Assembly: GCF_000485595.1 (NCBI RefSeq)
Contig: NW_014577105.1
Span: forward strand, 1 to 27,886
Length of the DNA: 27,886 nt
DNA from: Priapulus caudatus
Lineage: Eukaryota > Priapulida > Priapulimorpha > Priapulimorphida > Priapulidae
Direction: 5' to 3'
Within the stretch, counting starts at the first letter, position 1; every line of letters begins with the position of its first letter. Positions 11,148-27,703 of the stretch are shown here, in pieces. The position numbers and the translations under genes are program-made. Under the pieces are notes generated by a model. That model made no database searches. It was not told the origin of the DNA and saw nothing but the letters and a program-made list of their open reading frames with translations.

Positions 11148-14100
11148 ATGGAAGATTGGGAAGCTGAAACGCAAGCAGCATCAGACTTGCATGCGGTAGC
11201 AGCGCCTGAGTTGCCCGAGATCAAGCTTTTTGGTCGATGGACTTCCGACGATATTCAAGTCAATGACATGAGCTTGACTGTAAGTGTGCATTATTATACA
11301 GATAACGCACGGCCCAGCGTGCATTTACATTGATCGCACAACAGGCCAAGTGCGTTATCTGTTTTATAAAATTGCGACACACAATTAATTGAAAATAAAT
11401 AGTAAGTCTAGATCACGGAAATTTATTTCAATTCCGAACGTCAAAACAAACACATCTACAGTTTAGTAAATTGCTTCACACACAATTAACAGTATGTCTA
11501 GATAAACAGTCTAGATAAATAGTCTAGAAAATAAATAGTAAATCTACATCTCGAAAATTTCAGTTTGATGCTTAATTATTGTAAATGTTAACATAATCGC
11601 GAGCGTGCAATATAACTTTTTTTGCGCGCTTTTTTACACGGTTTGGCGTGCATTATAACAACAACAACAGCGTGTCATGTGACGTGTTTTGACCAATCAT
11701 GATCAGTGTTCGAAATTCACGGGCCGACAGTTTCGATGCCGGGCCTACAGCTTCTTGGTAAAACAGGCCCGCTGATCCTACAGCTATTTGATCACCGAAA
11801 ATTCGAAACACTGAGAAACTGTTACCTGTAGAAATCTGTGCACTCTGTGCATGCATATTAACTTCCAGGGGTATTTATTTGAAAACTAATCCGTGATAAA
11901 CCGTGACATACATGTAAACAAGAGCAGATAAAGAAGGAGAGCGTACAAGGGTAAAATGCTGAAACCATGCTGCAGTATTAGTCGAATTATTAAACTTTTC
12001 CCATTTTATTTTGACGATCCTTTGCAGTATTATTGATTAGCTGTCTTACCTTGTTCATATCAAACAAACCGCATGTCCCTACGATGCCCTTACGCTGAGA
12101 TAATGAGCGGCGAAAATCTGGTATTTTCGCCGAAACCAGACTCGAGATCAGTGTGAACTGCGTCCCTCTCCCGAAGTGTTATAACTTCGGGAAACCTCGC
12201 GTGTCCTGAATGATGTCTGTTATTGATTGCCATAGTGATGACCCCCACCTGTGCCCACCTCACGCCCACCTCACGCTGGATGTATAGTAAACTCTGGTAG
12301 TATTACGTGAGTCAGCGCCACTGGCGCTACACAGCGGCGACCGGAAGCAACACACTGGAAACACTTCGAGAGACAGTCGCAGTTCACACTGATCTCGAGT
12401 CTGGTTTCGGCGAAAATACCAGATTTTCACCGCTCATTATCTCAGCGTAGGGGCATCGTAGGGACATGCGGTTTGTTTTATATGAACAAGGTAAGACAGC
12501 TAATCAATAATACTGCAAAGGATCGTNNNNNNNNNNNNNNNNNNNNNNNNNNNNNNNNNNNNNNNNNNNNNNNNNNNNNNNNNNNNNNNNNNNNNNNNNN
12601 NNNNNNNNNNNNNNNNNNNNNNNNNNNNNNNNNNNNNNNNNNNNNNNNNNNNNNNNNNNNNNNNNNNNNNNNNNNNNNNNNNNNNNNNNNNNNNNNNNNN
12701 NNNNNNNNNNNNNNNNNNNNNNNNNNNNNNNNNNNNNNNNNNNNNNNNNNNNNNNNNNNNNNNNNNNNNNNNNNNNNNNNNNNNNNNNNNNNNNNNNNNN
12801 NNNNNNNNNNNNNNNNNNNNNNNNNNNNNNNNNNNNNNNNNNNNNNNNNNNNNNNNNNNNNNNNNNNNNNNNNNNNNNNNNNNNNNCAGTATACTGTTTT
12901 AAAATAATATTAAGAAGATTTAGGTAATATATCATGTTGAATTATACAGTAAATAATAATAATTGTCTCAAGTTTTAACACACATGTCATAAGTCACTGT
13001 AGCTGCAAAGCACGTCGTATTAGGCCTACTTACTAGTCATGCAAACAGCAGTACAGCCTCGTCGCACCACTCGGGTTTAACAGTATCATATTGTTTTTAA
13101 CGATTGGAAAAACTATATATACATTTTATAGAGGGTGTAGCTAAATAAAAGCTTTCCTACGTAAGAGCTTGTATGTCTACAAAATACGTTTACTTTGGAC
13201 ACACTCAACACAGATGGAATTCCTCAGTGCCCATCAAAATTTTACAGTAGGTAAATTTTACATAATTTTTTTCCCTTTCCCACCAAAAAGTGTTGCTAGT
13301 TGTAAGCTATTGGAGTACCCTGAAATGGCTCTAGATTGCATCTCAGAGCTTATAATTTTCAAATATGTTCTGGCCCCCAGACCCCCATAGAAGTCCCCGA
13401 CGTGTACCAGACTACCAGTCTGTCTCTCTGCTGTCAAAGTGGAGAGTCGTAGTTACCAAGGAGCTACATATAACAACGATATGGCGTTTCCTTAATTGTG
13501 AGCCCCGGCAAAGAAGCATAAACAGTCATCCGACGAGAGGAAGGAAAAACAGAGGGATTATGATTATGGACATTGATAATTACTAATAAACACAAGGAAG
13601 AACATGATATGCTGTTTTATTACTGTAATTTGCTCCAAAATTGGCGGGCCTACAGCTTTGCTGGCTGGCCTGCAGCTTTTAGGAGCTATAGGCCCTGCAG
13701 GCCTACAGTTTTTTCTGATCAGTGGCAAACACTGATCATGATGCATAAAATATCTGAGCCATTTTATAATGCGTGATGTAACAGGTTTTGCCCCTGTAGC
13801 ATTGTGCATGATTTTATGGGAGTGTACTGTATGAATTAGTGTTGGAGATCGGTCCAAATTTCATGATCGATCATCGGTTTTACAAAACGACCGATGATCG
13901 ATTAATCATCGATCATTTTAGATTGTGGCGACGACGTGGTGACGCCGCGTCATTGTCGACACAACCGGTGTATTGCGAAGGAATATTGACATGATTGTAT
14001 GTGTAGCTAGTATTTAATGGTAAGTAAATTAAGGATACTGTTGGCATGATTGTATGTGTAGCTAGTATTTAATGGTAAGTAAATTAAAAGGATACTGTTA

Positions 14101-17100
14101 GGGTTACAGACGGGTAACACTCTAAAGAGCATTGCAACATAACTGCTCATCAAATTCAATCAAACTCATATCCATTACATAAGAGAGATGTCTCTCTATG
14201 CTATCGATGAAAATTTTTTATTAAAAATTTATTGCTATAATTAAGTGACGGCAAAAAATGTCAATTTATACAAAAATTATTTTTTGGTTATTTCTCAGAA
14301 ACAGCAGAGTTGGGACCTAAACTTTTAACCATAAGTTGTTCATAATATGAACAAAAAAAGGGTCCCTGTAATTTTTTTTAAATGTTTTAATTTAAGAAAT
14401 AAGTTGAAAAGATGTAGGCAAATTTAGGATTAGGCTTGATTTTTAGGAAACAAAGTCGCTTAGTTCCTTGGAAATTTATACCGCACCGTGTTTACTAGTA
14501 TTTGTGTAAATGTATGTACTTGTGTCAAATCTGGAAATAAAAAAATAATCGGTCGTCAGATTTTCTACTCGATTAGTCAACTCGTCAGCCCAAACGAGTA
14601 ATGATCGGCGAACTCGATTAATCTGAACACCACTAATATGAATTGCATCGTTATGACCAATGTGTCATCCCCTTACAGTAATACCCCACATTTCAGGAGG
14701 GATGACATTAAATGATTTACCATTACACGAACGTTCTATAACTTAAACACCTATTTCCATATTACATTTCATTATATATACAAGTAAAAGATAGATTTAT
14801 GGAACGATCATGTTATCATTTGCCAGTATACAACCAATCTGGTGCCTTAAATCGAATTAACAGGAAATTGTACGTAGCTGCAGTAATACTAAATAGGCAT
14901 TTACGTGCAGGTACATTCCATTTGATGTTCAGCTAGAAAATGTGTATGTGCTAGAATATGCAATCAATCTTCACTGCGTTTATTGTCAGGACTACATCTC
15001 CGTGAAGGAGAAGCATGCCAAGTACCTGCCGCATTCGAACCTGCGGTACCAAATGAAGCGCTTCCGCAAGGCGCAATGCCCGATCGTCGAGCGACTGACC
15101 TGCTCCATGATGAAGCATGGACGTAACAACGGCAAGAAGCTGCTAACCGTGCGCATTGTCAAGCATGCATTCGAAATCATCCACCTTCTTGCTGGAGAAG
15201 TACGTACACTGTTGCTCTCGCCAATCTTAGTGCAATTTGTTGTCTCCGAGTGATTCACCCATCAGGGGTCATGAGGTCATCATCATTTTTGGATAGTAAT
15301 TTCAACAATGTTGGTATCCAAAATCTTTAAATATGCAATAATAGCATTTGAAAATTATTAATATGTAATGTAATTATTATATAAAAACATGAAAACAGAT
15401 TCACAGATATTATTAATATGTAATGTAATTATTATATAAAAACATGAAAACAGATTCACAGATATGCACAGACAAGTACACTGCAGACGTATTGTCTAGA
15501 CGCATTGTCTGGTTCGCTTGATACAATGTATACACATCACATTTATGATCAGATCGCGCACTCGCTCTACGTGCACTCGCTCAGATGCGCTGCCGTATAA
15601 AGTTGATAACTCAACAACCACTATCCCGATTTTGGCGATTTTTTTTTTACTATCGGCGGGATACCAAGCATTGAAATCTGGTATCCAACACAAGAATCTA
15701 CTATCCCGCGGATATCGCGATACCGCTAATTTCGACCCCTGCCCATGGTGGTGTTTCCTGTATAGGAGGATTGCAGATCGCACATGATTGTGATTTAGAT
15801 TAGAGGAAATTGTGTTGTTTGTGCAAATTCTATGATGATAAATATACCTTTATGATTGTCTGTGATTACTGAAATCCATACTCTAATTTTTTACTGAGAA
15901 TTTGCCAAGTTCGTTGTAACATTTTAGTAATTAGTGTGTAGTGAGATGGTTGTGTTTCATAATAAATTTATTATACATGTATCAAACTTACTCTTACTCT
16001 TAGAGTCTCGTATGGTTGTTTTTAACCTTTAATTGTTAACAAATGATTACTAATTCTATATATTCCAAGACAGTTTGAAACTGGCCATATTTAGTTAACA
16101 AGGAAGATGATATATCACACGTATTCCACATATTGCATTGTTTTACAGAATCCCCTGCAAGTGTTGGTGAATGCTATCATCAACAGCGGTCCACGTGAGG
16201 ACTCTACACGTATTGGACGTGCTGGCACAGTTCGTCGTCAGGCTGTAGATGTGTCCCCTCTGAGACGTGTCAACCAGGTAGTTAGTTGTTGAACAACATC
16301 TACTAGTGAGAAAAATGATAGACCGTCAACGTGTATTTAGTGGAAAATCGTACGTTTAAAGCCTACTTGAGGGTGAATTTGTTGACTTGGGTAAGAGTGT
16401 ATTTGTTAAACGTGTAGAACACGTTACTGTAATATTGTTGCAACTGACAAGTTACGTAAGACAAGTTACTTTCTGTCGCACATGATTGTGATTCAGATTA
16501 GAGGAAATTTAGTCGTTTGTGCAAATTCTATGATGATGAATATATACCTTTATGATTGTGTGTGATTACTGAAATCCATACTCTAATTTTTTACTGAGAA
16601 TTTGCCAAATTAGTTATTATTATTAGTAATTAGTGTGTAGTGAGATGGTTTTGTTTCATAATAAACTTACTTGTGGGTCAATTTGTTGACTTGGGTAAGA
16701 GTGTGTTTGTTGAATGTGTAGAACACGTTGCTATAATATTGTTGAAACTCACAAGTTACGTAAGACCAGTTCCTTTTTGTCAGGTCAGCATCTGTTTAGT
16801 AATGTAGTAGTTGTGCAGTGTGAAAACAACTAAACTCTAGGGTAATTTGCCATGAGATTGCAAGTTATTTGAAAAGAGTAGCACTATTTCTTCCCTGAGA
16901 CTTTACAGTGCTTGTGTTGGAAGCTACATATTTGCTGTACAACGTGTTGTTTGGTTGAATGTTGCATTAACAATTGAATTACTATTTTGTGTTAGGCCAT
17001 CTGGCTGCTCTGCACCGGAGCTAGGGAATCCTCGTTCAGGAATATCAAGTCCATTGCAGAGTGTCTGGCTGATGAACTGATCAATGCATCCAAGGTAACA

Positions 17101-19441
17101 ATTCTACTTGTTTTAACTTGTCTGGTTGGTAGTTACATTCTGTGCTCACAATTTAAGAAAAAACTTGTGGCCCCTGGAGTTATTTGGACTTGATGTGGTG
17201 TCATTTGTAAAAAGTTGAACTTGTACTGCATGCAGTAAAAACAACAAGATATTGTATTTCAACATAGTTACAGTGTATTAAGAGCTGGATTTTGTAAAGT
17301 GCCCAAGTCTGCCACCACTGGTTTTAGACTACCCATCCAGGTTCTCCAACCATTCCTCATTCTGCGGAATCATTACGATTTCTAGGCTTAATTTCCGGAT
17401 TCTGCAGCGGCAAGGTTATATTCCTCATTTCAGTTGCACTGTACAACAGGGTTGGAGACCCTGCCCAGCATACCTGGAGGCGTGAAATGTTCAGATTACC
17501 AGATAATACATGATAGAAGTTGAATTCAGCCTGTTAAACTGAAATTTGTTGGGCAATGCTGAATAGCTAAACTCTGGTGCTGTTGTTTATTTTGAACCAA
17601 CTAGCTTGGGTACCCGGCTTTGCACGGGGAAAAACACTTGGGAACAACTTGTAGAGCAAATTCTGACACATCTATTTACTTAATTTTAAGGCTAGAGTCG
17701 TAACAGAGAAAGAAAATATGAAGGGGTAAAGAATAATATTCTGACAAAAACAGTTGGAAAGATTCTATGTAGTCAATTCTTCTGGTTATACAACATTGTT
17801 ATGAAATTGCAACTGGTGACGTCTGTCACGTGTCTCTCTTATCATTGGGATTCACAATACATCAAAATAATACATGGAAACTCTCATTAGTATTGAAATT
17901 ACTGTGTATTACAGGGTGCGAAATTAACGGGAGTCCGGAGTCAAATACTCCCTGATTTACTGTCGGACTCCCTGGTTTGACATATGCAGGAGTCCGTGTG
18001 ACTCCCTGAAAATTCTGCCATACTAACTAGTTCGTTCCGGAGCACGGCCTCGCGGAATTACTGTATTTTTTCAGCTAATGTCCAAAGAAAATTTGGTAGA
18101 CATGCAACTGCGTTAATCTTAAAAATAAGCACATGCGTTATTATTAATATCTTTGAATCTCGGACTGCGGACTCCCTCATTTTGCTGCAGACGCCCTCTT
18201 TTTGAGGGTAGGGAGTCCGTCCGTTGGGCTCCCTTGTTCAAAAGTTAATTTCTACCCCTGGTATTAAGTATTGAGCATCTAATTGCCAATGCTACCTGAA
18301 GAGTTGGCAATTCGACTAACAACCAGCAGCATCTAGTGAGCGCACAATAAAAATCACAAAGGAAATATGCTGGAAAAGACTCGCTTATTGTACAATGATC
18401 AAACACACTACATAGGTTTAAAACAAACTATACTATACATTACTCTAGGTCAGTGGTTCCCAACCTTTTCACCACCAAGGACCCCTTTCATTTAAATGAA
18501 TTTCCCCACAGACCCCAGGTTTTTGAAAAGTCATGTCTACTCAAGTTTACTCAACAAGCAGATTTTATTAACTAACAAAAAACCTGATTTCCCACGGACC
18601 CCAGGTTTTTGAAAGGTCTGGCTACTCAACAAGCAGATTTTATTAACTAGAATCAAACTCGTTCCCCCAGCTTCATCTCTCAGTTGAAAGACATATGTAA
18701 CGGAAGCAGCCGTTAGGCTATTTTATAGCTATAACATCTACCCCGCACAACCAATGTTGCCATACTGAGTTGATAATATTATTGCCAAGAACAACCAAAC
18801 GTTTGAATGTTTATCTTTAGCAGCCCTATCGTGAGTAATTATACATTTTAGTATTTTACGCTGGAGCCTCTTGAAATTTTGAACTTGGCTCACAGATCCG
18901 CAGTACTTAGTACCTTTGCGGACCCCCATGGGTCCGGGGTCCCCAGGTTGGGAACCACTGTGCTAGGTTCTTTGCAGATTTTCCGTTAAAATAGGTTAAA
19001 ATAATGCCACGAAGTTTTGTTTCAATATTCATTGGCATTTTTTTTAAATTGTAAAACTGACAGCTATACCGTTGCTAACAATGGTGGCGCCACTGGGAGC
19101 GCACCCACTAAAAAAGTTGCGCAAAGCAACGTTTCGGCTGCAGGCTACAGACCGCTCTCTCTCTCTCTGCGTGCATGCTATCTACCCCCTTTCTCGTTCC
19201 TCTATAACGTGAGAACTGTTGATGTGATATTGCGAATAGGCACATTTAAGCTGTGACTTTCTAACATCCCCTTCTTGCTTTAGTACTGGCACAGACAGTT
19301 AGGTTAGCATTGTTGCTCCACATCACTTGTAATGTTTTGGTACATACTAATTATGGGCTTTTTCAATTTTAGGGATCTTCGAACTCTTATGCCATCAAGA
19401 AGAAAGACGAGTTGGAGAGAGTTGCAAAGTCTAACCGTTAG
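11148..19441 (+). CDS. RPS5: 40S ribosomal protein S5 (uS7), five coding exons
   Basis: RPS5 is a core component of the small ribosomal subunit head, near the mRNA exit and E site. Coding exons are 11148-11279, 14990-15199, 16149-16277, 16996-17094 and 19373-19441 (TAG). Every junction has GT..AG and phase 0, giving 132+210+129+99+69 nt, or 212 residues (human 204; the extra length is in the variable N-terminus). Conserved stretches include [101 protein letters not shown] and the C-terminal [12 protein letters not shown]. The start is the ATG at 11148. An in-frame ATG at 11070 lies upstream of the acceptor CTTTCAG ending at 11126 and is intronic. The first coding intron is 3.7 kb and contains the assembly gap. 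Two introns host box C/D snoRNAs. Confidence 0.97.
11286..11372. repeat. Small inverted repeat just inside RPS5 intron
   Basis: ACAGATAACGCACGGCC (about 11299) is matched in reverse by GGCCAAGTGCGTTATCTGT (about 11345). The pair begins within about 20 bp of the donor at 11280. AT-rich direct repeats with AGTCTAGATAAA follow to about 11580. It is a possible MITE, but no target duplication was found. Confidence 0.5.
11704..11813. mobile_element. Short MITE-like element with CAGTGTT ends
   Basis: The inverted ends are CAGTGTTCGAAATT (left) and AATTCGAAACACTG (right). The interior contains GGGCCTACAGCTTC. A related opposite-orientation copy lies at about 13627-13736 and shares GGCCTACAG and the flank ATCATGAT next to CAGTGTTT. 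CAG..CTG ends suggest hAT affinity, but target duplications are not clear. Confidence 0.45.
12014..12526. mobile_element. Young hairpin element with 149-bp arms, cut by the assembly gap
   Basis: The left arm 12014-12162 and right arm 12378-12526 are reverse complements with three mismatches and no indels (about 98% identity), separated by 215 bp. The arms contain ACCAGACTCGAGATCAGTGT and GCTGAGATAATGAGCGG. Pairing continues imperfectly inward (CGAAGTG at 12172 against CACTTCG at 12362). The right arm runs straight into the N run, so its outer end is unknown. There is no ORF. It looks like a recent foldback-type MITE in the first coding intron of RPS5. Confidence 0.8.
12527..12886. other. Assembly gap (360 N)
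   Basis: All bases are N. The gap starts exactly where the right arm of the hairpin element reaches the point matching the start of its left arm. Frames crossing the gap are artefacts. Confidence 1.
13627..13736. mobile_element. Second copy of the CAGTGTT-ended MITE-like family
   Basis: Read on the minus strand, CAGTGTTTGCCACTGATCAG follows the flank ATCATGAT. Internal words GTAGGCC and AGCTGCAGGCC resemble the 11704-11813 element. The left boundary is approximate. Confidence 0.35.
13837..14635. mobile_element. hAT-like nonautonomous element in RPS5 intron
   Basis: The ends TAGTGTTGGAGAT and ATCTGAACACCACTA are imperfect inverted repeats. The 8-bp flanks are GTATGAAT (13829-13836) and ATATGAAT (14636-14643), one mismatch, matching the 8-bp target duplication typical of hAT transposons. 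Subterminal palindromic words (GATCATCGG..CCGATGATC) lie near the left end and ATCGGTCGTC and ATGATCGGCG near the right. A 55-bp tandem duplication with TGTATGTGTAGCTAGTATTT starts at 13990 and 14045. No transposase frame is seen. Confidence 0.65.
15355..15464 (+). repeat. Exact 55-bp tandem duplication
   Basis: Two identical units (15355-15409 and 15410-15464) start TTATTAATATGTAATGTAAT and end AAACAGATTCACAGATA. They lie in the RPS5 intron 15200-16148. Confidence 0.9.
15778..15968 (+). repeat. Duplicated snoRNA-bearing segment A, copy 1
   Basis: This 191-bp segment starts TCGCACATGATTGTGAT and ends TTTCATAATAAA. It matches 16476-16667 at roughly 90% and contains snoRNA copy 1. Confidence 0.9.
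15823..15905 (+). ncRNA. Intronic box C/D snoRNA, copy 1 (predicted 18S rRNA guide)
   Basis: All core parts are present. The terminal stem is GCAAATTC (15823-15830) with GAATTTGC (15898-15905), a perfect 8 bp. Box C is ATGATGA (15832-15838), box D is CTGA (15894-15897), and an internal CTGA at 15869-15872 could be D'. The length is 83 nt. The guide just before box D, ATACTCTAATTTTTT, can form 15 pairs (one G-U) with the conserved 18S segment AAAAAATTAGAGTGT. By the D+5 rule it would direct 2'-O-methylation of the fourth A of that run. The 18S comparison is from memory. It lies in the RPS5 intron 15200-16148, 243 nt before the acceptor, so it would be released by intron processing. I do not assign it to a named snoRNA family. 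Confidence 0.82.
16364..16477 (+). repeat. Duplicated segment B, copy 1
   Basis: The segment contains TTTGTTGACTTGGGTAAGAG and the hairpin AACGTGT-AGA-ACACGTT. The same segment recurs at 16666-16781 as AATGTGT-AGA-ACACGTT, where a G-U pair keeps the stem. Confidence 0.85.
16476..16667 (+). repeat. Duplicated snoRNA-bearing segment A, copy 2
   Basis: Second copy of 15778-15968, directly abutting segment B copy 1 on its left and B copy 2 on its right. It contains snoRNA copy 2. Confidence 0.9.
16521..16605 (+). ncRNA. Intronic box C/D snoRNA, copy 2
   Basis: Paralogue of the 15823-15905 snoRNA in the next RPS5 intron (16278-16995). The terminal stem is GCAAATTC (16521-16528) with GAATTTGC (16598-16605). 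Box C is ATGATGA (16530-16536), D' candidate CTGA 16569-16572, and box D CTGA 16594-16597. The guide before box D is identical to copy 1. The candidate D' guide differs by one base (GTGTGTG for GTCTGTG), and the segment after box C has an inserted TA. Conservation of boxes, stem and D guide against drift elsewhere suggests both copies are functional. Confidence 0.82.
16666..16781 (+). repeat. Duplicated segment B, copy 2
   Basis: Second copy of 16364-16477, ending ACGTAAGACCAGTTCC. The order A-exon-B-A-B implies duplication of a block that once included, or flanked, the 16149-16277 exon. Confidence 0.85.
17912..18260. mobile_element. MITE-like element with GGAGTCC subterminal repeats
   Basis: The ends CAGGGTGCGAAATTAA (17912) and TTAATTTCTACCCCTG (to 18260) are inverted repeats. 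GTATTA flanks both sides (17906-17911 and 18261-18266). The interior carries many copies in both orientations of GGAGTCC/GGACTCCCT, likely subterminal binding words. An end-like sequence, read on minus as CAGGGGTCGAAATTAGCGG, also occurs at 15724-15742. No ORF. Confidence 0.65.
18451..18960. mobile_element. hAT-type (Charlie-like) nonautonomous transposon
   Basis: The inverted ends are CAGTGGTTCCCAACC (18451) and GGTTGGGAACCACTG (to 18960), a perfect 15-bp match and a hallmark hAT terminus. The flanks CTCTAGGT and TGCTAGGT match at six of eight positions, consistent with a decayed 8-bp target duplication. An internal ~87-bp unit with GACCCCAGGTTTTTGAAA is duplicated (about 18501 and 18588). 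No transposase remains. It lies in the last RPS5 intron. Confidence 0.88.
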
Positions 19442-20356: not shown

Positions 20357-21565
20357 TCAGTCTTGCTCAGTGATAACAAACACCTTACTGTCAGTGTGCT
20401 TGCGGCGCGAGAATACCTCGCGCGCGCTTTCGCGGAAGCTCTTCGTCATGAACGCGTAAATGAACGGATTCAGCGCGCTGTTGCAGTAGGAGAGCGTGTG
20501 CGCGAGCGCCTTGATAGCGAACGTCGCTTCCGTGTAGCGCCACGTACCGGCGTCGTGACTCAGCTGTACACAGTGCGCAGGTAGCCAACAGACAGCGAAC
20601 ACTGCAACAATGACGAGCAGCGTGCGCGCTGTCATCGTACGTGACGTCAGCATCCTGCCGGCCGACGCCGCGACGACGATGGGGCTGACGGTGCGGCAGA
20701 GGCTGCGCGCCATGAGCACGTACGTCGATGTGATGACGATGAGTGGAGCGACGTAGAACGCGATGAAGAGTACCACTGTGAAGCCGGTACGGTGCGATGG
20801 CAGCTGCCAGTGCTCGACGCAGTACTCCTGCCACTCTCCTGCAGAATGGCCATGAAAAAACATGCAGGCATGAGAATTTTCCGCGGATTCGCGGATTTCC
20901 AAGTTTTGGTTTTCATTTTGGTCATTCTTGAGATCGATGCAAAAAAAAACGAATAAAAATTTGAGGGGGGATAAGGTGTACTTTTCTTATCAAAATGGAC
21001 ACCATTTTTAATTTTAACTTCATAAAAAGTCAGGGAAAGTATGTCAAATTCGTTACATGGGTACGATGTGTTGGAAGAAGTTGCAGTCATCTTATACAGC
21101 GAGTGTGAATGTGTCGCTGGTTTTAATACACGAAACCTGGTGAGATTTAATAGAACATGACTGAAATTTCGATAATTCCAAAACATTCTTAATATTCAAT
21201 ATATTCACATACTTAATTCGAGAATGCACGCATGACGTGGTATGGTAAGAAAGTCTGTACCTCTATCAAAGTAAATTGCAACACGCATTATGAAGAGCAC
21301 AGGGGCCAAGCCAATGAAGCTGGTCATCCAGATGACTGTGAGAATAACTACTGTTCTTTGTACTGTTCTGCAACATTGCATACATAAGATATTGTTTTAG
21401 CACGTTTGTCATACTACAAATTTGTTACAAGACTGATACATAGTGCTACAGTTTCTAGTCCAACTGGATGGTTAAAAACTTAATAGTAATGTATAATAAG
21501 GGTATTACATTACAACTACAAGTACGTATCATGTCGAATTTTATCCGAGAGGGAATTAGTGCCTT

Positions 21566-21608
<43 letters not shown>

Positions 21609-23755
21609 TAGCAGTATGTTAAGTATTAGGCAGTGGGTACGGTAGCCGTATCTTAATGCCTCGAGGCTACGGGTACGGGAGTCCATTCACTTTCATACTT
21701 AACGAGACAAAGATGGCGGCGGTGGCGCCAGATTTCGAAATAACGCCTTGGGAAATAAATTCACGATTTGAGAGTTTAGATGAGCTAGAACCCTAACCCT
21801 AACCCTAACCCTAATCCTAACCCTAACCTTAACGCCAAAAAGGGGCTTCAACGACCGACGGCTACCGTACCCGTAGCCACTGCGTAATTGGCAATACATT
21901 TCTGATTATACGTGGAATAATTGAATGTTGGGATTTTTAATGCGTTTGGGAATGGTCACGATGGGTGGGTGACTAGGTAATCGGCTATGTGTTGTCATTC
22001 ATACCTGAAGATAAGAGACCTTACTGGTTGGACCACAGCGTAATACCGGTCAACGGCCATAGCTATGAGTGTCATCACACTGGCCGACACTGCGACGGTA
22101 GTTAAGTACGTCCATACTTTGCCTGATAAAATGGTAATGAAATAGGGTTATATGCAGGGCCGGACTAAGCGTGTGGGGGGGGGGCCGGGGCACGCAATTG
22201 TGTGGGGGCCCTATAGTCTGTATTTTTTCCGCACTTTCATGCTTGCAAATTTAGAGAGTATTTCATCGCGTTTCAATGAATTTAAAATGTCACTTTCGAC
22301 AGCGAGAATACTGAGGTTTACCAGTCTCTGTTGGCTCATCGTGGTTCTCATGTGATTTTTAATCAACTTGAGTTTTGAAAATGACCTTTCACCGCTACAA
22401 TTCGAGACCATCAATAATCAGCTGAACAGCGAAATTCAGTCAGCGAAAGAGCATGGGAAACGCATCACTTCAACGTTACATGCTAAGAATTTTGTGGATC
22501 ACAATTACGACAGTTTTGTAAATTTTAGGATACTCTAAATGTGGGGGGCCCGGGGCACGTGCCCGTTGCCCTGCCCTTAATCCGCTAGTGGTTATATGTG
22601 TTATAAAGCTATGGGCACCGTAAAGTTGCATCACCATAATTTTAATAAGCTTGCGCGTGACTGAAATAACTGTTTGTGTGTGTTGTAGCAATTTACCAGA
22701 AGCACACCGATCAATTATTTCCTTAGATCCTCAACCGATATTTCTATAATGACGATCACGATGCAAATAAAACCAAGGCACGTACATACAATCTGACCAA
22801 ACGGCCAGTACGGCAGCAGATAGTTTATGGTGATAAACGGGACGCAGAAGACCAGTAGGATGAGGTCAGCAACGGCAAGGTTGACCAGATAGAGACTAGT
22901 GATTGTTCTCATCGATCTACTGCAAAGGACGACGTACAACACCAAGCCATTCGACGCGAGGCCAACTGCAAAGCATCAAACAAATGAAATTATGAAACAA
23001 TAAAGGATACGATAATCAATGCCACCTGGTGAGTGGTGCTGAGAGGGTCTATGTCCCCCAGGGTACTGCCGGAACTTACCCTGGGTACGGTCGGGTATAC
23101 CGGAACGGCGGAACGTACCCTGGTACTATCTAATATGCCGGACCGTACCTCGCCTACTCCACTAACGAGGACAACGAGTCTAGGGAGTCGCCTACGCCTA
23201 CTCACTAACCCTAACCCTAACCCTAACCATATCAAATAGTTACCAGGGTACGTTCCGGTATACCGGACCGTACCCTGGGGGACATAGACCCTATGAGCGT
23301 GAGTGGTATTAGTTCAAGTCGTTACATAGTAAGACACGAACGCACGCGCACGCATCATGAAAAGTAGGAGATGGGTTAAAGACCTACTGAGAACCGTTAC
23401 AGGTTACGCCTTGGTATTTGTTTGGAAATTTTAAGAATATTTTCTAACCACGTATTTTTTTAGGCGTGGGTGTGGGTAATTCATGTACTTGCGATCTTGC
23501 AACTGCGCGGTATCTGGTGAATAATTCGAGAACGGAAATGCGTCACTTACCTAAGAATATAAGCGAGAATACGAGCGGAAGTGTAATAGTTATTATCCGG
23601 TCTTGGCCATCACCGGCGTAGCTGGAGTAGTTGATGTAGTCGTAGTCAACGTCTTGTGGACCGGTGATGCTACAATTAAGGCACACCACCGTGCAGTCTA
23701 GACATATATCTTCGTCATCCATGGCGACAGCCTTTACTGCCATATGAGAATCCAT
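20357..23755 (-). CDS. Rhodopsin-class neuropeptide GPCR (galanin/allatostatin-A/kisspeptin receptor type)
   Basis: This is a seven-transmembrane receptor of the plasma membrane. Coding exons, in order, are 23755-23551, 22965-22786, 22122-22005, 21367-21261 and 20838-20357 (TGA), all GT..AG, giving 363 residues. The N-terminus (1-55) has two N-glycosylation sites (NCS at 27, NYS at 42), four Cys and an acidic Tyr-rich run. TM1 has SNGLVLYVV (Asn74), TM2 LAVADL (Asp102), TM3 begins at Cys129, a codon split by an intron. The DRY box is V-DRYYAV (153-155). Loop 2 Cys210 should pair with Cys129. TM6 has CWLPAH (287-292) and TM7 [11 protein letters not shown]. The tail is short (about 30 residues) with no obvious palmitoyl Cys. 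TM2-3 and TM7 most resemble galanin, allatostatin-A and kisspeptin receptors; the exact ligand cannot be set by eye. The start at 23755 is the first ATG after a candidate acceptor at 23782. Confidence 0.9.
21567..21608. repeat. (TA)n microsatellite
   Basis: About 20 TA dinucleotides lie in the GPCR intron between coding exons 3 and 4. Confidence 0.97.
21631..21886. mobile_element. MITE-like element carrying CCCTAA repeats (1)
   Basis: The left end CAGTGGGTACGGTAGCCGT and right end ACGGCTACCGTACCCGTAGC are inverted, the right having an extra CTACGG block. About 21792-21830 holds roughly six CCCTAA-type repeats (with CCTTAA and TCCTAA variants), the vertebrate-type telomere sequence. It lies in a GPCR intron. 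No clear target duplication and no ORF. Confidence 0.6.
22155..22590. mobile_element. hAT internal-deletion derivative with perfect 8-bp target duplication
   Basis: GTTATATG flanks both sides exactly (22147-22154 and 22591-22598). The ends CAGGGCCGGACTAAG and CTTAATCCGCTAGTG are imperfect inverted repeats. GC-rich subterminal blocks (GGGGCCGGGGCACG and GGGGCCCGGGGCACGTGCCC) lie near each end. The minus strand keeps only the C-terminal end of a hAT transposase. It sits in the GPCR intron between coding exons 2 and 3. Confidence 0.88.
22211..22414 (-). pseudogene. hAT transposase C-terminal dimerisation domain fragment
   Basis: A 67-codon minus-strand frame contains [20 protein letters not shown], then [19 protein letters not shown] and a basic tail. 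This is the C-terminal dimerisation signature of ZMYM1/hAT-type transposases (C-S/A-E/G-R-x-F-S-x-L-K-x-I-K-x-x-x-R-x-x-M-x-x-x-R-L-x-x-L). The catalytic domain and zinc finger are missing, so it cannot be an active enzyme. The frame ends 56 bp from the element's end, as expected for an internally deleted copy. Confidence 0.88.
23044..23292. mobile_element. MITE-like element carrying CCCTAA repeats (2)
   Basis: Perfect 23-bp inverted ends begin AGGGTCTATGTCCCCCAGGG (23044) and close CCCTGGGGGACATAGACCCT (to 23292). Inside are further palindromic words (GGTATACC, GGAACGTACCCTGG). About four CCCTAA units lie at 23205-23228. The flanks CTGAG and ATGAG suggest a short target duplication. It lies in the GPCR intron between coding exons 1 and 2. 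Confidence 0.8.
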
Positions 23756-24490: not shown

Positions 24491-25951
24491 ATGTAAAACT
24501 CTTATAGAGTGACACTGTCGACCCGAGCACAATGTTGTTCGCAATGTTTTGATACAAGCACTGTGCGCTCTAGTGAAACATTTTCGTTACAGGCTACAGC
24601 ATCCTCACCTTGCTGCCTTCTACGTCTGATAACGCCTGTCAATGTCCGACATCCACCGGCAATCATTCCTCAAGAAGAACAAAATTCTGTATACGTATTC
24701 TATCGCAATATACGAGTTAACACACGTATGTCGGAATTTATATTTGACTTCTAATGTCACGCGAACGTAGAACGAACCAAACAAACATGTCCGACGCCCA
24801 GGCACCCGCTGATGCATACTGGGGAGCCAACGGACCGTGGAAGAAGTCAGGCGCTCACGCGTAGTGGTGTATAATACAACTAAGGCCGTTGGGTCGGCCT
24901 GTATACGGTGAATGCGCGTATAAGAGTGGTGGCGATATCTGGCCGCTACCTCTCCCTCAGCCCGTTGTTAACCAATCACACCCACCCACTCGTATGAGGA
25001 CATTCGAATCCCCTTATTGAGATGATAATTATTCGGCGAGTCAATCATATACGTACATTCATTCGTACGCACATATTAAGTTATCACAAGCGCCGTCGTT
25101 TCTGGCAGTCTCACAATTTTACATACGCAAATACGTCAATCGAAACAACGAAGGAGAAAACTATTAATAACTATTAAAAATATTAACTAAAAATATTAAA
25201 AACTATTAATAAAGGCCCCCATAGCCGTCAGATCGGGTTTGAGAGCGTTAATTACGCGTAGACGATGATAAGCCTGCTTCTGGGAAAAGACGAGTTTTTC
25301 CGATTCCATTTGCGACATACAATCTTAAGCCGGTTAACTAGTGGTTGCCTCTACATTTACCGTGAATATTGAAGGACGTCTATATTAAAAGAATGTTCGT
25401 TTAATCGGCTGATTGCGATATCAGCAACGACAGTAACGCGCCGCATTATGATAACGCTGGAGGTTCGATGAGCGAAATCTGCTATGAATACAAGTTTTAG
25501 TTATGAATTGATTGACAATAAATTGAATAGCTATTAATTCGTAAACAACATATCGATGCGAGAATGAGTTGCCTGTGACCCCATGCTATTATGACGCAGC
25601 GGGTATGACAGCTGGAACCCAACAGAGTAGGATGTGCGTCCGGTCTACACACATTGTGCTGAAGAAGTAACCATACACCGTTTGCAGTAGTGTGAAGGCG
25701 CAGAGCCACCATTTCTACTGCGCTCACGTCCGGACTATATTCCGCATATAAACGCGGCTGGTGACAACATGATACGCTATAACAAGGTGTTACCCGAGAT
25801 CGATGTTACCCACGATTTTGCTTTAGCTGCATGTGATGTTGTTCAACACAGTCGCGTTTAGTCAAAACACTGAGGCGTCTGACTAACTGACCGCTTACTC
25901 GATTTACGCATTCGTTGTTACACCGGCATTATAATACGCATCAGCGTTGAA
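24491..25951. other. Divergent intergenic region between the two GPCR genes
   Basis: I see no credible ORF. AT-rich short repeats (ACTATTAATAACTATTAAAA and variants) lie at about 25160-25212. Promoters for both flanking genes are expected here, but I cannot place a start site with confidence. Confidence 0.45.
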
Positions 25952-27703
25952 ATGTGCGCCGTTCATATTGAATATTTAAGCGCCATCTCGGCGCTGCTAC
26001 TGTTTTGCGCATCACTCACACCTGCGTTGACCCTGAGTGAGTGCAGCAGAACTCCGGTAAAATTTCCGCCGTACAGATTTACGAAACGCGGCGACGTTAT
26101 GTTGGGCGCGGTTATACCCGTGCACGAATATAGCAGCACGGACTACTGCGGCAAGGACATCGACCCACCGTACGTTCCGTATGTCTACAGCCTCGCGTTT
26201 GCCGTCGATCAGATCAACAAGAAAACGGCTTTGCTTCCGAACGTCTCCCTTGGTTACGTGATTGTCGATTCGTGCGGCAAGGATGTTACTGGTTTACTAC
26301 ACGCTCTGGAGTTTCTGCCGAAAAACAAGTCCTGTAGTAATCAGACTGGAATAGGTAGTTGTAATTACTGTGGCTATTATTATTATTGTTATTGTTATTG
26401 TTACTGTTAGTGTTATCGTTAGTATTATTGTTATCGTTATCGTTATCGTTATCGTTATCGTTATTGTTATTGTTATTGTTATTGCTATTGTTTTTATTAT
26501 AAAGATCCGAATTATTTCAACCCAATAGCGGACTGGCACAATACTGATGTCACAGATGCACACATGCACGCACGCGCACACACTGCAGCGACAATGACCA
26601 ACCGTAACATTCAGCGTCAAAGTCGCAGCGACTGACACTGTCATACTGCAGGTGTTACCGACTGGCGTTAGGTCAACTAGTTGATGTCAACTAGTTGAGA
26701 GATTAGAATATGTTCTACTTTCTCAAGTTTTGGTCAGCGAGTTGATCAATTTTTTTGATTTGATTTGATGCAGCCAATAACAATCAGGAGGTATATCCAT
26801 CCACCCAGGGGGAGATAATTTACGCAATAATGTAATTAAATGCGTTGAACATCGTATAGAAAGGTGAATAGAACGTTGAAAGCTGGATCAACTCGTCAAC
26901 TTTTCAACTAAAAGTTGATAGTGTAAAAACCCAGCTTTATTTGGGCAACCATGGACAATAAAAGCCCGAATCTAATAAACCTGAATTTCCCTGAGCACAT
27001 ATATATACTGCCATTACATCGCAGTCGTCAAACAGATTAGCAGCCGAATTTCGCTGGGAAATGTTTTTGCGAAACATTGTCTAGGGCTGTGATTGCCTGC
27101 TTATGAAGTGTCGCACAACAATGTCGATGGAAATCGGAAATGATTTTAAACATGGTTGTCGTTACGGTTGTCGCTGGACGTTATCACGTGGTGCGTGTGC
27201 AACAGCTCATTGGAAACAATAGTTTCTCATTTTCTAAAATGTCATTAGACGTGACGTTTTATCGTTGTATTTGCAGTGTCTCTACCACTGGTGCCTAGTA
27301 TGTACGAGCTGTTAGTATATATAGAGGTCAGTGGACCTAACCTTTATCGTGTTAAATTTAGTATTATCTTATAAGTTATTTATTAATGATCCTGTGAATT
27401 CATATAAATTTATATATGTATATAATATCATATTATCAAATAATACTCTAGACGGCATGCATTAATTGTGAGCTCACAATCATGCTAAATCTGTTTGTCA
27501 AATCCTGGTTTCTCACAGGAGATGCCTACCCGGATGTTATAGGCGTCGTTGGAGGACGCTTCAGTTCAGTGACTCAACAGATGGCGCTACTGCTCGGACC
27601 GTTTCAAATCCCGCAGATCAGTTATTTTTCAACGAGCGACGAGCTAAGTGATAAAAACAAGTTTCCCTACCACTTGCGCACAATTCTACCCAACAGAGTT
27701 CAG
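25952..27703 (+). CDS. Class C GPCR, mGluR-like ligand-binding domain (5' part; gene continues past the window)
   Basis: Two exons are visible: 25952-26354 (134 codons plus one base) and 27519-27703, joined GT..AG in phase 1. They give the first 196 residues. Residues 1-28 form a signal peptide (hydrophobic ISALLLFCASLTPAL). The Venus-flytrap domain then starts: RGDVMLGAVIPVHE, a Cys at 66, FAVDQIN (83-89), LLPNVSLGYVIVDSCGKD (94-111) and, across the splice, YPDVIGVVGGRFSSVT, FQIPQISYFSTS and ELSDK. These are hallmarks of metabotropic glutamate receptors and relatives. By hand alignment, Ser150 and Thr173 match the mGluR1 residues that hold the amino-acid backbone (Ser165, Thr188), but the position of mGluR1 Arg78, which holds the glutamate side chain, is Tyr77. 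The ligand may not be glutamate. The cysteine-rich and 7TM domains lie beyond the window. Confidence 0.9.
26375..26500 (+). repeat. (GTTATT/GTTATC)n microsatellite in class C GPCR intron
   Basis: A hexamer-like array of TTATTG, then TTATCG, then TTATTG, starting about 20 bp after the donor at 26355. The 115-codon minus-strand Thr/Ile-rich frame is a by-product. Confidence 0.95.
26673..26698. repeat. Two 12-bp palindromes in tandem
   Basis: TCAACTAGTTGA occurs at 26673-26684 and 26687-26698, separated by TG. Related words (GCGAGTTGATC at about 26738, GATCAACTCG at about 26886, CAACTTTTCAACTAAAAGTTG at about 26898) suggest a larger inverted structure of about 240 bp, perhaps a MITE. The rest of the intron to 27518 shows nothing recognisable. 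Confidence 0.7.

Follow-up and report, generated by a model that had tools for sequence, protein, structure and literature searches.

The stretch of DNA analysed here, called the window in the following, comprises 27,886 nucleotides from the priapulid worm Priapulus caudatus and contains the complete gene for the ribosomal protein RPS5 (uS7). Exons 2-5 are translated in frame, introns 2-4 have GT/AG borders, and a Pfam search found Ribosomal_S7 in the assembled protein; the gene named as host in the original prediction is therefore indeed RPS5. The borders of exon 1 and intron 1 were judged by eye from the sequence. A single RPS5 locus was found in the assembly, and 5/5 matches are situated there. 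Among the at least 120 database matches listed for RPS5 there was none from a priapulid. Ribosomal protein genes are usual hosts of snoRNAs, and introns 2 and 3 of this gene each contain one copy of a candidate box C/D snoRNA. The positions of all features are compiled in Table 1.

Table 1. Features of the RPS5 locus and of the 18S rRNA fragment. Positions refer to the window unless a contig is named.
Feature	Position	Strand	Remarks
RPS5 (uS7) host gene	11148..19441	+	complete gene in the window
RPS5 exons	11148-11279, 14990-15199, 16149-16277, 16996-17094, 19373-19441	+	
RPS5 intron 2	15200-16148	+	949 nt; holds snoRNA copy 1
RPS5 intron 3	16278-16995	+	718 nt; holds snoRNA copy 2
Candidate box C/D snoRNA, copy 1	15823..15905	+	83 nt; boxes, 8-bp stem, fold z -2.65, sub-threshold C/D family matches
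Candidate box C/D snoRNA, copy 2	16521..16605	+	85 nt; boxes, stem, fold z -4.06, sub-threshold C/D family matches
Box C ATGATGA, copy 1	15832..15838	+	
Box C ATGATGA, copy 2	16530..16536	+	
Box D CTGA, copy 1	15894..15897	+	
Box D CTGA, copy 2	16594..16597	+	
Putative guide ATACTCTAATTTTTT, copy 1	15878..15892	+	D+5 = base 15889
Putative guide ATACTCTAATTTTTT, copy 2	16578..16592	+	D+5 = base 16589
Possible box C' GTGATTA, copy 1	15862..15868	+	one mismatch
Weak D' candidate ATGA, copy 1	15852-15855	+	
Duplicated unit B, copy 1	15778..15970	+	intron 2; snoRNA and flanks; 178/195 identities to 16476-16669
Duplicated unit B, copy 2	16476..16669	+	intron 3
Repeat A, copy 1	16359..16477	+	intron 3, directly upstream of unit B; fold z -0.24
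Repeat A, copy 2	16663..16781	+	intron 3, directly downstream of unit B; fold z +0.56 (16659-16786)
18S rRNA fragment	C957:92170-92487 (L004:7170-7487)		about 318 nt; edges by eye

Repeats of other kinds are also present in the introns. In intron 2 a perfect 55-bp tandem duplication (15354-15463) lies upstream of snoRNA copy 1. Intron 4 harbours a short element (18445-18966) with 22-nt terminal inverted repeats of the CAGTGGTTCCCAACCT type that are 91% complementary, and we take this element to resemble a non-autonomous hAT element.

Anatomy of the two candidate snoRNA copies

Both copies carry an exact box C (RUGAUGA) near the 5' end and an exact box D (CUGA) near the 3' end, as is characteristic of box C/D snoRNAs, and they share the layout GCAAATTC-T-ATGATGA ... 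CTGA-GAATTTGC. The terminal stem GCAAATTC/GAATTTGC consists of eight perfect base pairs in either copy and is present in the MFE folds. When compared with dinucleotide shuffles both copies were found to be more stable (z -2.65 for copy 1 and -4.06 for copy 2). The putative guide ATACTCTAATTTTTT has a length of 15 nt and is separated from box D by one base in both copies. As to the internal boxes, GTGATTA is a possible C' with one mismatch and ATGA a weak candidate for D'; the D' side of the snoRNA appears to be without guide function.

The identical boxes, 8-bp stem and guide claimed in the original prediction can be read directly from the sequence, and its coordinates for the two copies proved to be exact on rechecking. 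At this level its main claim, a duplicated box C/D snoRNA in adjacent introns of RPS5, appears to be borne out: two copies with exact boxes, stem and guide are present. Vertebrate intronic C/D RNAs are located roughly 70-80 nt from the 3' splice site. In contrast, the candidate snoRNAs of RPS5 are situated further away, at a distance of 243 nt for copy 1 and 390 nt for copy 2.

We scanned both strands of the window for an exact RTGATGA followed 45-160 nt downstream by CTGA and closed by a terminal stem of 6 bp or more. Two matches were obtained in all, namely the two copies in the RPS5 introns. In the null set of 100 first-order Markov sequences of window length, of which one strand each was scanned, the mean number of matches was 0.04 for stems of 6 bp or more, 0.02 for 7 bp or more and 0 for 8 bp or more.

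A search against Rfam, which had been proposed as a check of the original prediction, found no family at its gathering score anywhere in the window, in keeping with the cautious suggestion that the snoRNA may be undescribed. With a permissive search of positions 15400-17000, 23 of the 25 matches listed fell on the two copies, all of them to C/D families. The best family was RF00134 (snoZ196/R39/R59), which scored 33.4 and 28.1 bits and thus remained below its gathering score of 55. This family has the same box architecture and is the top-scoring one at both copies, whereas the stretch adjoining box D departs from the family consensus. Membership in any of the sub-threshold families was rejected, as the matches are spread among many C/D families and are due to the boxes and the layout, with no guide in common.

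Duplication within the host gene

The duplicated unit is larger than the snoRNA itself. Unit B comprises about 193 nt (15778-15970 versus 16476-16669), and the alignment of its copies has 178 identities in 195 columns; beyond the snoRNA it takes in flanks of about 45 nt (5') and 65 nt (3') without recognised function. In intron 3 the second snoRNA copy is moreover bracketed by two copies of a 119-nt repeat, repeat A, which are 88% identical. Searching the 385-Mb assembly (2952 contigs) gave two matches each for unit B and repeat A, these repeat counts being lower bounds, and a third copy of unit B was not found there. As all matches are within RPS5, neither unit B nor repeat A looks like a dispersed element.

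We also considered repeat A as an H/ACA snoRNA and rejected it as such, since its two copies fold no better than shuffles (z -0.24 and +0.56) and have no H/ACA layout. In a consensus fold of the two copies 0/35 pairs have changes on both sides.

Inside the snoRNA the two copies differ by two substitutions in 83 aligned bases and by a 2-nt indel, and all of these differences are located between box C and the guide. It had been stated originally that the remaining positions drift. Differences do exist, but with so few of them the statement was too strong. Substitutions amount to 2/83 in the snoRNA, 10/105 in the flanks and 12/114 in repeat A; these counts leave out the gapped stretch 15919-15923/16619-16622, the 2-nt indel in the snoRNA and the initial 5 nt of repeat A. 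By Fisher's test the snoRNA differs from the flanks with p=0.07 and from flanks plus repeat A (22/219) with p=0.03. The lower divergence of the snoRNA favours selection on it weakly and at the borderline of significance, and gene conversion would give the same low divergence.

These data bear on the question whether both copies are functional. Possibly only one copy works, and its partner arose recently as a passive by-product when a larger repeat of the introns was duplicated. This would fit with the inclusion of flanks without recognised function, with the adjoining repeat A, for which no RNA structure is supported, and with the borderline excess conservation of the snoRNA. On the other hand neither copy has a damaged box, stem or guide, the differences are confined to the part between box C and guide, and both copies fold better than shuffled sequences. 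We therefore regard a passive second copy as rather unlikely; it would be compatible with the function proposed below for the working copy.

Predicted pairing of the guide with 18S rRNA

A conserved 18S pattern was used to find the small subunit rRNA of the species itself and gave one match in the assembly, on contig C957. The fragment found there has the sequence of 18S core, with CTTTGAAAAAATTAGAGTGTTC included. It starts and stops abruptly within unrelated, non-rDNA sequence and may owe its position to misassembly or insertion.

With AAAAAATTAGAGTGT of this fragment the guide forms 15 contiguous pairs, including one G-U, that start 1 nt from box D, where a complementarity to rRNA or snRNA of at least 10 nt is expected of a box C/D snoRNA. 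The D+5 base faces the fourth A of GAAAAAATTAGAG, which corresponds to C957:92391. The original prediction had assumed just this pairing of 15 bp with one G-U and had placed D+5 on the fourth A; the exact target is thus present in the 18S fragment of the same assembly, and the guide bases 15889 and 16589 face that A.

An anchored match of such quality is expected 2e-4 times by chance in 5.7 kb. With the 18S fragment, 2000 shuffled guides gave at most 14 pairs and the 1542 other 22-mers from introns 2 and 3 at most 13, so that 15 pairs were reached in neither set. If the match is not anchored to box D and G-U pairs are free, at least 15 pairs occur in 6 of 200 random 5.7-kb sequences; such matches are not rare because the guide is AT-rich.

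The guide together with box D has no exact match in the assembly beyond the two RPS5 copies. With one mismatch allowed, four matches were obtained, that is two extra sites, versus seven for a reversed control pattern, and the one-mismatch level is therefore noise. The two extra sites were rejected as further copies of the guide in other hosts, since nothing like a box C precedes either of them within 130 nt.

From these searches it can also be judged whether the two copies might resemble snoRNAs by chance, the introns being AT-rich, or might derive from a transposable element that was duplicated. The AT-rich sequence, the guide being a run of T, the other repeats in the introns and the one-mismatch count, which is lower than that of the reversed control, could be taken in favour of such a view. 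It is highly improbable nevertheless, considering that the strict C/D scan yields a mean of only 0.04 in the null sequences, that the 385 Mb contain two copies, both in RPS5, and that the exact guide with box D is found only there, the one-mismatch sites having no motif like box C.

Alternative targets

A conserved 28S motif was searched for in the assembly and gave no match. As proxies we used the eukaryotic rRNA contained in eight GTDB bacterial genome records, namely eight LSU sequences (three of which are truncated at an end), four SSU and three 5.8S sequences; matches were counted only with at least seven Watson-Crick pairs, and one of the SSU sequences (L012) is very divergent. Against the eight LSU and three 5.8S proxies the D guide gave no match above 10 pairs. 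In one SSU proxy (L015) the homologous site again forms 15 pairs, with three G-U, and the matches elsewhere in it have 11 pairs with 3-4 G-U. The other three of the four SSU proxies have no long match at the site, their best matches being 9-10 pairs at other places.

A target of the D' side, or of a guide upstream of an internal CTGA, was rejected: at most 12 pairs were obtained, mostly with 2-4 G-U, and the places differ between the proxy records. Viral contigs were scanned for the 18S target, the 5' part of the snoRNA and 28S, and none of these was found in them. The proxy sequences (L012-L019) are themselves worth recording as eukaryotic rDNA inside GTDB bacterial genome records, i.e., as contamination; one unit contains a group I intron.

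Proposed function of the snoRNA pair

The locus combines the anatomy of a box C/D snoRNA, present in two copies, with exact complementarity to the species' own 18S fragment, and there is no better target in the proxy rRNAs. The explanation that we consider probable on the basis of these sequence features is that the two copies are intronic box C/D snoRNA paralogs which arose by cis-duplication in RPS5 and guide the 2'-O-methylation of the fourth A of 18S GAAAAAATTAGAG. Transcription of the gene and splicing of introns 2 and 3, followed by processing, would release the two snoRNAs. The C/D motif and the terminal stem would then recruit the core C/D proteins, which are fibrillarin, Nop56/58 and 15.5K. 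The 15-nt element beside box D would pair with AAAAAATTAGAGTGT of the 18S rRNA, and by the rule of box D plus five fibrillarin would be set on the fourth A and methylate its 2'-hydroxyl.

The kind of gene is familiar, and only the exact target spot is possibly new. If the site is methylated, it would represent a mark restricted to a clade and placed where the small subunit is strongly conserved. The locus would in that case also be a clean one for studying the multiplication of intronic snoRNAs within a host gene, with two copies that differ at few bases.

Is the predicted site known?

In conventional numbering the predicted A presumably sits near position 811 of human and 755 of yeast 18S rRNA. 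In the rows of the chicken C/D table considered here there is nothing between 18S-C-757 and 18S-G-825 (PMC2653536), and the corresponding part of the Neurospora table has 18S-Am793 and nothing near the predicted site (PMC2780460). A Drosophila study names human 18S 644-867 among the regions with human-unique Nm peaks (PMC13228274), which from the passage concerned we read as the absence of a fly mark there. The A811 that occurs in the snoRNA/18S literature is a yeast position that was probed with DMS (PMC4105744).

A candidate for the same mark is Am755 in the 18S rRNA of the planarian Schmidtea mediterranea. This site was described as planarian-specific, was called fully methylated by RiboMeth-seq and was altered after fibrillarin knockdown; RTL-PCR did not validate it (PMC11649923). 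To place it, we matched the planarian sites given in that paper to human sites and added as an anchor the equivalence of Xenopus 828, human 866 and yeast 808 (PMC8522698). With these approximate anchors, planarian 755 corresponds roughly to human 813-814, a place no more than about 3 nt away from the predicted A. Like the predicted A it is an 18S adenosine that is close by numbering; unlike it, Am755 belongs to another phylum and, by a rough estimate, is located some 2 nt further on.

The suggestion that site or snoRNA may be undescribed still stands, as no Rfam family reaches its cutoff and the site is absent from the chicken, Neurospora and fly material in the parts consulted (PMC2653536, PMC2780460, PMC13228274). 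As regards the site it is weakened a little by Am755, which may be the same base as the predicted A or a neighbour of it. The literature search retrieved no report of a snoRNA in an RPS5 intron, and searching with the letters of the guide or of the 18S target gave nothing related. Among the best 10 matches of a search joining snoRNA, Priapulus and 18S rRNA, a query that could miss papers on snoRNA and Priapulus alone, there was no paper on this combination.

Priapulids are placed in Ecdysozoa by the taxonomy and are early-branching ecdysozoans. Should the predicted A be methylated in priapulids and be identical with the planarian Am755, it would be an old protostome mark, guided by a snoRNA that is hosted by RPS5 and belongs to no Rfam family; we consider this combination quite a long shot. 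To our knowledge, such a mark is unreported in vertebrates, yeast and flies.

Finally, real box C/D snoRNAs could pair with 18S rRNA without methylating it. The pairing might hold the platform of pre-18S open during folding, or have no effect in vivo. We assume that the predicted target segment lies beside the ES6/platform region. In the 18S rRNA this region is chaperoned by snR30 (PMC12095548). Some snoRNAs with good complementarity to rRNA leave the endogenous rRNA unmodified; snoRNAs complementary to rRNA positions that are never modified are known, and some of them are active only on artificial substrates (PMC8522698). The consulted parts of the chicken, Neurospora and fly material, moreover, contain no methylation at the homologous base (PMC2653536, PMC2780460, PMC13228274). 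Against this stands the classical guide geometry of the RPS5 copies, in which the duplex begins 1 nt from a perfect box D and the pairing is unbroken through D+5, and also the planarian Am755, near by numbering and called fully methylated (PMC11649923). Pairing without methylation thus seems unlikely to us, and guided methylation of the fourth A is the reading that we prefer.

Comparison with other snoRNA paralogs

As a biological system the RPS5 snoRNA pair is ordinary. In chicken, U36 is found in introns 3 and 4 of RPL7A and U38 in introns 4 and 5 of RPS8, and according to the authors almost all chicken snoRNA paralogs stem from intragenic duplication (PMC2653536). Since this route is the usual one in chicken, as far as that account goes, the arrangement of the paralogs in RPS5 is nothing unusual. 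The candidate pair resembles chicken U36 and U38 in having boxes C and D, a terminal stem, an antisense element beside box D, a ribosomal protein gene as host and paralogs in neighbouring introns. It differs from the chicken set in its host and its target base, neither of which is present in the table rows examined (PMC2653536).

Other features of the window

Downstream of RPS5 three further features were observed. On the minus strand, positions 20360-20986 represent an exon of a rhodopsin-family receptor, with 100% identity over 77% of the query to a galanin-receptor-like protein of Priapulus caudatus. An interstitial telomere-like run of 7.5 AACCCT units is located at 21789-21833. The open frame at 25883-26410 has a weak match to ANF_receptor, at 24.4 bits versus a curated cutoff of 25.4 bits, and by eye it is metabotropic-glutamate-receptor-like.
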